From Anaeromicrobium sediminis (GTDB lineage Bacteria > Bacillota > Clostridia > Peptostreptococcales > Thermotaleaceae), in assembly GCF_002270055.1 (NCBI RefSeq), contig NZ_NIBG01000001.1, positions 284,937 through 348,936 of the forward strand: a stretch of 64,000 nt of DNA, given 5' to 3'. A program made the position numbers and the translations under genes. The notes below the pieces were generated by a model. The model saw nothing but the letters and a program-made list of their open reading frames with translations, did no database searches and was not told the DNA's origin. Numbering within the stretch: the first letter of the stretch is position 1; every line of letters begins with the position of its first letter. Of the stretch, positions 44,177-45,995 are shown one piece after another.

Positions 44177-44420
44177 TTAATTCTCACAAATTGTATTTAG
44201 GAAATTGTTAAGATCTCCAAGTACTTTTATTTCTTTATCTTCTAAATCAATCTTGTATACGAAAAAATCATATAGCCATTACTTTGTGTACTTTCATTAA
44301 TAATTTTTTCACCTAACTGAGCTACTAATCCAGATTCTAAAATATTATCTGTTTGCCGTTGCATATCTTCTTTTACCAATGTTACAATATAGAAGATGTT
44401 TCCTAGATTCTTCATAAATC
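44177..44420 (-). pseudogene. Decayed copy A of an unknown gene
   Basis: The minus strand reads DNILESGLVAQLGEKIINES, TQSNGYMIF, then after a one-base slip VYKIDLEDKEIKVLGDLNNF and a stop. A second copy with the same motifs lies at 44982. The family is not recognised. A frameshift after YMIFS and the missing 5' part show that it is dead. Confidence 0.6.
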
Positions 44421-44502
44421 AATTTCAATTTGAGAATTAATTTAATTTGACGTGGAATTTAGGTTGTACATAATTCATAGAATTTTTATAGGAGGAATAA
44501 GA

Positions 44503-44772
44503 ATGAATAAAATTACAGTTTTCGGTAGCAAACTTTGACCAGATTGTGACCCAGTGAAAGAGTTTCTTTCAGAAAATAATATTGAATTTTTATATATCGA
44601 TATTACAGATAGTATGTTAAATCTAAAAAGATTTTTGAAATATCGAGACATCAGACCTGAGTTTGATGAAATCAAAAAATCAGGTGGCATCGGCCTTCCT
44701 TGTGTAATGGTCAATAAGGGCGAACATTTTATTTTTGACCAAGCTGAAATAGAAAAGTTTATCAATATTTAG
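44503..44772 (+). CDS. Glutaredoxin-like selenoprotein (in-frame UGA at active site)
   Basis: From an ATG at 44503 with a perfect GGAGGA site the frame reads MNKITVFGSKL, then TGA (44536-44538), then PDCDPVKEFLSEN and on to TAG at 44772, 89 residues in all. The family form is GSKLCPDC, so TGA sits exactly where the first catalytic Cys belongs, giving U-P-D-C. The rest (FLYIDITDSMLNLKRFLKYR, DEIKKSGGIGLPCVMVNKGE) is complete and undamaged, including the cis-Pro region. A stem-loop 16 bases after the UGA fits a bacterial SECIS. A plain nonsense mutation is the alternative; SelB/SelC are not in the window. Confidence 0.8.
44555..44571 (+). promoter_or_regulatory. Candidate bacterial SECIS stem-loop
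   Basis: TGAAAG (44555-44560) and CTTTCA (44566-44571) form a six-pair stem around the loop AGTTT. The loop with its G starts 22 bases after the UGA, within the window in which bacterial SECIS loops are found. Confidence 0.5.
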
Positions 44773-44981: not shown

Positions 44982-45200
44982 TTAATTATCTCTAGCTTTT
45001 ACTTTTTCTGTCCTGCCTATAGTTATAAAGTTGTTAAGAGCTCCAAGCACTTTTATTTTTTCATATCCTAAATCAGTCGTGTATACCGAAAAAACCATAT
45101 AGTTATCACTTTGTGTGCTTTCATTGATTATTTTTTCACCTAGCAAAGCTACTAATCCAGATTCTAAAATATTATCTGCTTGTTGTGTAAATATTGCCCC
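44982..45200 (-). pseudogene. Decayed copy B of the same unknown gene
   Basis: The frame DNILESGLVALLGEKIINES, TQSDNYMVFSVYTTDLGYEK and KVLGALNNFITIGRTEKVK ends at 44982 and is open here, but the 5' part is missing. It is clearly homologous to the copy at 44177 and lies on the other side of the glutaredoxin gene. Confidence 0.55.
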
Positions 45201-45551: not shown

Positions 45552-45995
45552 TCAAACCTGTCCAGTTTCTGTTTCATACGGCCAATTTATAATACCACCT
45601 AGATCAAATACATCTGTATAACCCATCTCTATTAACTTTTCTGATGCAATTCGACTTCTTCTTCCACTTCTACAATAAACGAATATGGTAGTATTTTTAT
45701 CTGGTATTTTTTCTTCAACCTGATTCTCTAATTCATCCACAGATATCAATAAACTATTTGGTATATGTTTTTCTGCATATTCATCCTTGGTCCTTACGTC
45801 TAATAGTATAATTCCTTCTTCTTTATCAAGCCTTTCTTTGGCATCAGAAGGTGTTATTTTTTTATATTCTATATCCTCCGATATACTTCCTTTATTTTCA
45901 TTTTTTACATCATTAGTATTTTGACATGCTATTAAACCAAAAGTCATAATTACTATTATAAGCAACACACCAAGGCGTTTATTTTTAGATATCAT
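45552..45995 (-). CDS. Rhodanese-like lipoprotein
   Basis: 147 residues. The signal ends in a lipobox (VIMTFGLIAC), so the protein is anchored outside the membrane. After a short linker comes a single rhodanese domain with GIILLDVRTKDEYAEKHIPN and the active-site loop VYCRSGRRSRIA, whose Cys would carry a persulfide. The usual ending FDLGGIINWPYETETG is present. A role in extracytoplasmic sulfur or thiol handling is likely; the partner is unknown. Start with GGGGTGG. Single gene. Confidence 0.88.
   Translation of the reverse strand: MISKNKRLGVLLIIVIMTFGLIACQNTNDVKNENKGSISEDIEYKKITPSDAKERLDKEEGIILLDVRTKDEYAEKHIPNSLLISVDELENQVEEKIPDKNTTIFVYCRSGRRSRIASEKLIEMGYTDVFDLGGIINWPYETETGQV

Follow-up and report, generated by a model that had tools for sequence, protein, structure and literature searches.

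Organization of the locus

The window analysed here is a 64,000-nt stretch of the Anaeromicrobium sediminis contig NZ_NIBG01000001.1 (positions 284,937 to 348,936, forward strand), from a genome of 4.71 Mb in 55 contigs. It contains a small gene for a glutaredoxin-like protein with an in-frame TGA at the active site. Features of the gene are listed below; positions are those of the window.

44490..44495, plus strand: ribosome binding site AGGAGG, 7 nt before the ATG, from the sequence.
44503..44772, plus strand: glutaredoxin-like selenoprotein gene, 89 codons and a TAG stop, from sequence, Pfam and homologues.
44536..44538, plus strand: TGA codon 12, read as selenocysteine (Sec), first residue of UPDC, from the homologue alignment.
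44545..44547, plus strand: TGT codon 15, resolving Cys of UPDC, Cys in 29/30 UGA forms.
44555..44571, plus strand: SECIS hairpin, arms 44555-44561 and 44565-44571, loop GUU 44562-44564, from comparison of relatives; pairing at background level in Cys forms.
44614..44682, plus strand: residues 38-60, predicted helices 38-50 and 52-60, with the motif LK.FLK.RD; exceeds the matching part of UPHC/UPYC proteins.
44692..44700, plus strand: G64-L65-P66, expected cis-Pro loop of the thioredoxin fold, presumably in cis geometry; G64 and P66 invariant in an 11-sequence alignment.

The frame is opened by ATG 44503 and closed by TAG 44770-44772, with a single TGA between them at codon 12, and the protein starts MNKITVFGSKLUPDC. 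The initial annotation had described a frame intact apart from a TGA at the first-Cys site of CPDC, a perfect ribosome site and an undamaged remainder of the protein; this description was confirmed by translation and by homologues (C or U at that site), by the 7-nt spacer between AGGAGG and the ATG, and by a frame that stays open to its stop without neutral decay. GGAGG-type sites also lie upstream of many homologue genes. As was likewise claimed, ORF finding skips the 17 N-terminal codons, because the ORF list begins the frame only at GTG 44554. Nine other codons of the gene are one step from TGA; the sole TGA stands at the catalytic position. The glutaredoxin-like assignment was borne out by Pfam PF00462, whose gathering score is passed by the window protein (34.3 vs 22.9 bits).

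An imperfect direct repeat (44194-44355 and 45020-45182, 81-89%, about 826 bases apart) flanks the gene, and each copy overlaps with short ORFs on the minus strand, which resemble remnants of one gene. A rhodanese-like lipoprotein ORF (named from sequence) lies at 45552-45995 on the minus strand; a similar ORF occurs near the homologue L032. Flank ORFs of the homologous loci were clustered over roughly 0.3 to 4 kb on either side, less at contig ends, and in these flanks no generally conserved neighbour or partner gene was found: the largest cluster (10 loci) consists of antisense ORFs over the gene itself, another of longer frames of the gene, and the remaining ones of 2-3 related loci each. 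A MetK-like ORF (named from sequence) stands upstream in the same direction at L050, L051, L059, L060 and L061, all of family f10, with UGA and Cys forms alike. The promoter scan gave three promoter-like sites vs 4.5 expected, and the terminator scan gave none; PADLOC returned no match, nor did the phage search at E 0.001.

The segment 44379-44782, that is, the gene with about 120 upstream bases, aligns over 404 columns, with 89% identity, to a locus in G241, a genome of another family; the selB products of the two genomes share only 52% protein identity, and outside this segment the 14 kb surrounding the window gene has nothing in common with the 11 kb surrounding the copy in G241. A similar case is G235 (92% over 310). 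Comparison of these sequences suggests that a single-gene segment was transferred horizontally.

Homologues with UGA and with Cys

Homologues were searched in 393 genomes of the order, 85 of which matched at E 0.001 or better. Counts of selB and MsrA refer to the 61 genomes with a match of at most E 1e-6; the remaining 24, weaker and in several cases with TGA, stand outside these counts. Duplicates (L041, L052, L053) and the UXX-star outgroup (L035-L037) were dropped before counting, as was L068 in the DNA counts; L076 was excluded from the tree and retained in the SECIS counts.

A TGA is carried by 22 of the 61 genomes, and translation places it at the aligned codon in each. Among the 58 aligned distinct homologue sequences, the codon aligned with codon 12 is UGA in 30 and Cys in 28. 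The in-frame UGA aligns with Cys of homologues, as is asked of a bacterial selenoprotein. The check proposed in the initial annotation, whether Cys or U occupies this site, finds both, with UGA in the nearest relatives; its adverse outcome, close relatives all with Cys together with neutral decay of the gene, did not arise. A phylum-wide sample of 398 genomes gave matches in 41, and the best 11 loci besides the window gene, from these 41 genomes, comprise 10 with TGA and one with Cys.

The active-site motif varies among UPDC, UPGC, UPEC, UAEC, USGC, UKDC and UPAC, and Cys forms with CPDC occur. The second Cys is retained in 29 of the 30 UGA forms, the exception being L076, which reads UPAS. 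L076 (G187:C5:33250-34300) is a truncated paralogue with an early stop in which the SECIS hairpin is still present. The first 11 codons are conserved among homologues.

Against L039, L040, L025 and L042, dN/dS was 0.19-0.38 overall and 0.19-0.31 downstream of the UGA; for the 11 codons before the UGA it was 0.18-0.19 against L025 and L042, from few sites, with no ratio obtained against the two nearest relatives. The gene is under purifying selection, not neutral decay.

The tree was built from 61 proteins (29 UGA, 29 Cys, 3 UXX-star). Its labels are clustered, with 5 changes for the three groups vs a shuffled mean of 22.4, and the Cys rows L031 and L047/L068 are nested within UGA rows; many forks are unsure because columns are few, and long branches, e.g., UXX-star, may be misplaced. 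In the Cys form L031 the seven hairpin pairs are still possible, its own best fold differs, and the loop G is gone because GAA stands where UGA forms have GAG. To judge from these sequences, Sec in L031 appears to have been replaced by Cys recently, leaving a SECIS remnant; PMC1794560 describes this pattern. No such remnant was seen in L047, also a Cys form, in the hairpin comparison.

The SECIS hairpin

A 6-bp stem-loop with a loop G 22 bases past the UGA had been claimed; the stem-loop and the loop G stand, and the dimensions are corrected, since the hairpin can be drawn with 7 bp and 23 nt. It begins 16 nt past the UGA, with the loop G (44562) separated from the UGA by 23 nt. In the 30 UGA forms, paired cells make up 98.6% of 210, vs 46-68% in slid controls; in 28 Cys forms they make up 48.5% of 196, vs 34-50% in slid controls, which is background level. 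Both sides have changed in 10 cells, from G-C to A-U in six sequences and from A-U to G-C in four. For the 30 UGA forms, none of 500 shuffles equalled the observed values for pairing, covariation score or number of doubly changed cells; doubly changed pairs and further pair types were not above shuffles, with 207 and 474 of 500 as high.

The Glu codon that holds the loop G is GAG in 30/30 UGA forms vs 65/209 of the Glu codons elsewhere in those genes (p 4e-14; this p-value and those from shuffles are overstated because the relatives are not independent), and in Cys forms with Glu at that codon it is GAG in 7/16. Leu +10 is encoded by CTT or CTC only in all 30 UGA forms; Leu +29 and Leu +33 use all six codons. 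In the phylum sample the loop-G codon is GAG at 9 of the 10 TGA loci. The exception, L106 (G501), is a TGA form with Asp in place of Glu at the loop codon, no GAG and no matching hairpin; it may have either an atypical SECIS or a different element.

Relative to synonymous recoding, the mean stability z was -1.44 for the 30 UGA forms and -0.20 for 29 Cys forms (p 2e-4). The window hairpin alone was not significant (z -0.78, 50/200 shuffles as good; recoding p 0.096); its significance comes from the comparison of relatives, the window sequence alone being insufficient. The bacterial SECIS model given in PMC13188914 has a loop of 3-9 nt, a stem of 4-16 bp, a G at loop position 1 or 2, a distance of 16-37 nt between UGA and loop, and an energy of at most -7.5 kcal/mol. 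The window hairpin fits this published model in its loop (GUU, with the G first), its 7-bp stem and its 23-nt spacing; the 60-nt fold from the UGA has -7.2 kcal/mol vs the limit of -7.5, and a 39-nt stretch has -5.2, a value that varies with the stretch folded.

Selenocysteine decoding in the genome

The initial annotation had asked for selA, selB, selC and selD and had named the absence of selB or selC as a ground for rejecting Sec; selA, selB, selD and tRNA-Sec are all present. The tRNA-Sec scores 70.8 bits, above the cut-off, and is called SeC tca by ARAGORN; selB (391.6 bits), selA (625.1 bits) and selD (364.4 bits) are each above cut-off, and selD-selA-selB are arranged as a cluster. In the same genome selD is itself interrupted by a UGA at the UxxK motif, grdB carries U just beyond the Pfam match (one of three copies read), and MsrA carries U within GMGUFW. 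Two further TGA-bearing glutaredoxin-like genes are present, at C1:252754-252945 and C27:42066-42254. The first of them, locus L092 (G000:C1:252874-252921, minus strand), reads UPHC, and its SECIS resembles that of the window gene in type (model match, E 2.2e-6).

Among the 61 genomes of the order, selB is above cut-off in 22/22 UGA-form genomes vs 30/39 others (Fisher p 0.02), a modest test because selB is common among these genomes. In G033, a genome without TGA, a full-length selB match falls slightly below the cut-off (218.9 vs 242.25 bits).

Predicted fold

The structure was modelled with AlphaFold2 from 11 sequences (mean pLDDT 84.2). The predicted model has a thioredoxin-type fold, with UxxC close to where helix 1 starts; predicted helices 38-50 and 52-60 precede its G-x-P loop. 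The top PDB match is the dithiol glutaredoxin cGrx1 (7c10; Z 11.5, rmsd 1.3, 73 residues), which Foldseek also places at rank 1; 7pwe, 7c12 and 3zit lie within 1 Z of 7c10, and glutathione transferases come next at a Z of about 9-10. The fold alone gives no function, since other thioredoxin-fold proteins follow in the ranking.

Discussion

The UGA at codon 12 is very probably decoded as Sec. Comparison across relatives strongly supports this reading, which had been proposed from the sequence: the decoding machinery, the conserved UGA, the SECIS comparison and purifying selection all speak for it.

Were the UGA a nonsense mutation, the gene would be a pseudogene, for which the two flanking repeats with their remnant ORFs and the truncated relative L076 in another genome could be cited; the same UGA is kept across many genera under purifying selection, however, and the hairpin and codon constraint are confined to UGA forms, which leaves this explanation a negligible probability. 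Equally implausible is a shorter protein from GTG 44554 without the active site: a 72-aa ORF does exist there, but its product would lose both UxxC and strand 1, conservation among homologues extends over the first 11 codons, and AGGAGG serves ATG 44503. A bacterial tRNA-Cys that reads UGA has been reported, and Cys is the functional equivalent in homologues, so decoding as Cys or another residue by a variant tRNA deserves a hearing. Its probability is very slight, if a shade above the preceding two, given the complete Sec pathway in the genome, the retention of hairpin and loop G in UGA forms only, and the fact that the other UGA sites read in the genome fall in classic Sec families.

Two further explanations accept Sec and differ in what it does. 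Sec might serve mainly as a metal or metalloid ligand, metal binding having been suggested for UXX-star selenoproteins in PMC13188914; retention of the resolving Cys in 29/30 UGA forms, the occurrence of CPDC Cys forms and the redox-active cGrx1 as top-ranked fold match make this improbable. A narrower form of the preferred reading, in which the protein would be dedicated to reducing the Sec-MsrA of its own genome, is unlikely too, if less so, and that MsrA is accordingly no more than a candidate partner. A MsrA match with one in-frame TGA (position read in the own genome only) occurs in 8/22 UGA-form genomes vs 0/39 others, and cGrx1, a native selenoprotein, is proposed as a reductant of Sec-MsrA in PMC7642778. 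On the other hand, 14/22 UGA-form genomes are without a TGA-bearing MsrA match, two more glutaredoxin-like genes of the own genome also bear a TGA, and the lineages are not independent; MsrA is not a general partner, because a search at E 1e-8 gave no MsrA match at all in two of the 14, G005 and G048.

Sec decoding and the oxidoreductase class, taken jointly, are held with good confidence, and the most likely role is that of a selenol/thiol disulfide reductase. In the proposed mechanism, SelB carrying Sec-tRNA-Sec would bind the loop-G hairpin just past the UGA, and Sec would be inserted at residue 12; the Sec12 selenol would then attack an oxidised substrate, Cys15 would resolve the intermediate as a selenenylsulfide, and a cellular reductant would re-reduce it. 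We infer the selenol/Cys15 chemistry from the UxxC motif and the parallel with cGrx1, whose first active-site residue attacks and whose second Cys resolves, with glutathione named as reductant, according to PMC7642778. In an anaerobe, the protein likely serves to repair oxidised proteins by redox chemistry.

Knowledge of Sec decoding itself is unchanged by the window gene; what it adds is a well-supported selenoprotein branch. From a plain ORF finder the protein has 72 instead of 89 residues and its active site is lost, and since the window member in addition passes no NCBIfam cut-off, annotation may miss the branch. With a SECIS in UGA forms, none in Cys forms, and Cys rows nested within UGA rows, the family makes a tidy small system for Sec/Cys exchange.

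Comparison with known glutaredoxin-like selenoproteins

That glutaredoxin-like selenoproteins with U in the redox motif are known in Clostridia, as the initial annotation had stated, agrees with cGrx1 and with the Grx family listed in reviews. Two reviews list Grx selenoproteins (PF00462, UxxC) as experimentally verified; as described there, that family (representative WP_010943784.1) has in common with the window protein PF00462, UxxC and Cys homologues, a likeness by description. Alkaliphilus metalliredigenes was credited with two Grx selenoproteins in a 2006 source, and one of these may belong to the same branch as the window gene. The window gene encodes a known kind of protein, because Sec UxxC glutaredoxins, clostridial ones included, have already been described.

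Uxx-star proteins (NF041212, NF041114) are likewise glutaredoxin-like with Sec near the N-terminus; membership was rejected for the window protein (21.4 vs a cut-off of 66 for NF041212, 18.6 vs 72 for NF041114). The 11-member alignment A3 gave best E-values of 7.5e-06 and 0.00021 to these two models, respectively, and an NF041212 search of the 22 UGA-form genomes gave no match above the family cut-off. YruB (TIGR02196), the best NCBIfam match of the window protein, was rejected as well (40.1 bits, cut-off 88.55). The window protein is below the cut-off of all 12 NCBIfam 20.0 models listed at E 1 or better, and for this protein the branch is left unnamed by these models at cut-off. That UPDC/UPGC proteins form an unnamed Sec-glutaredoxin branch with an extra helical stretch, moving between lineages as one gene of about 400 bp that brings its SECIS along, and serving a dedicated partner, in some lineages Sec-MsrA, is put forward tentatively, as a composite picture less likely than not.

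One of the nearest described systems is cGrx1 of Clostridium (Alkaliphilus) oremlandii (7c10), a selenoprotein with the common glutaredoxin fold and a U(C)PxC site according to PMC7642778. The KEFLSENN stretch under the hairpin is common to both proteins; identity is 33% over 73 aligned residues, and a cGrx1-like UPHC protein is encoded separately in the own genome. In cGrx1-like UPHC/UPYC proteins, a 16-column gap stands where the window family has its longer helical stretch before G-x-P.
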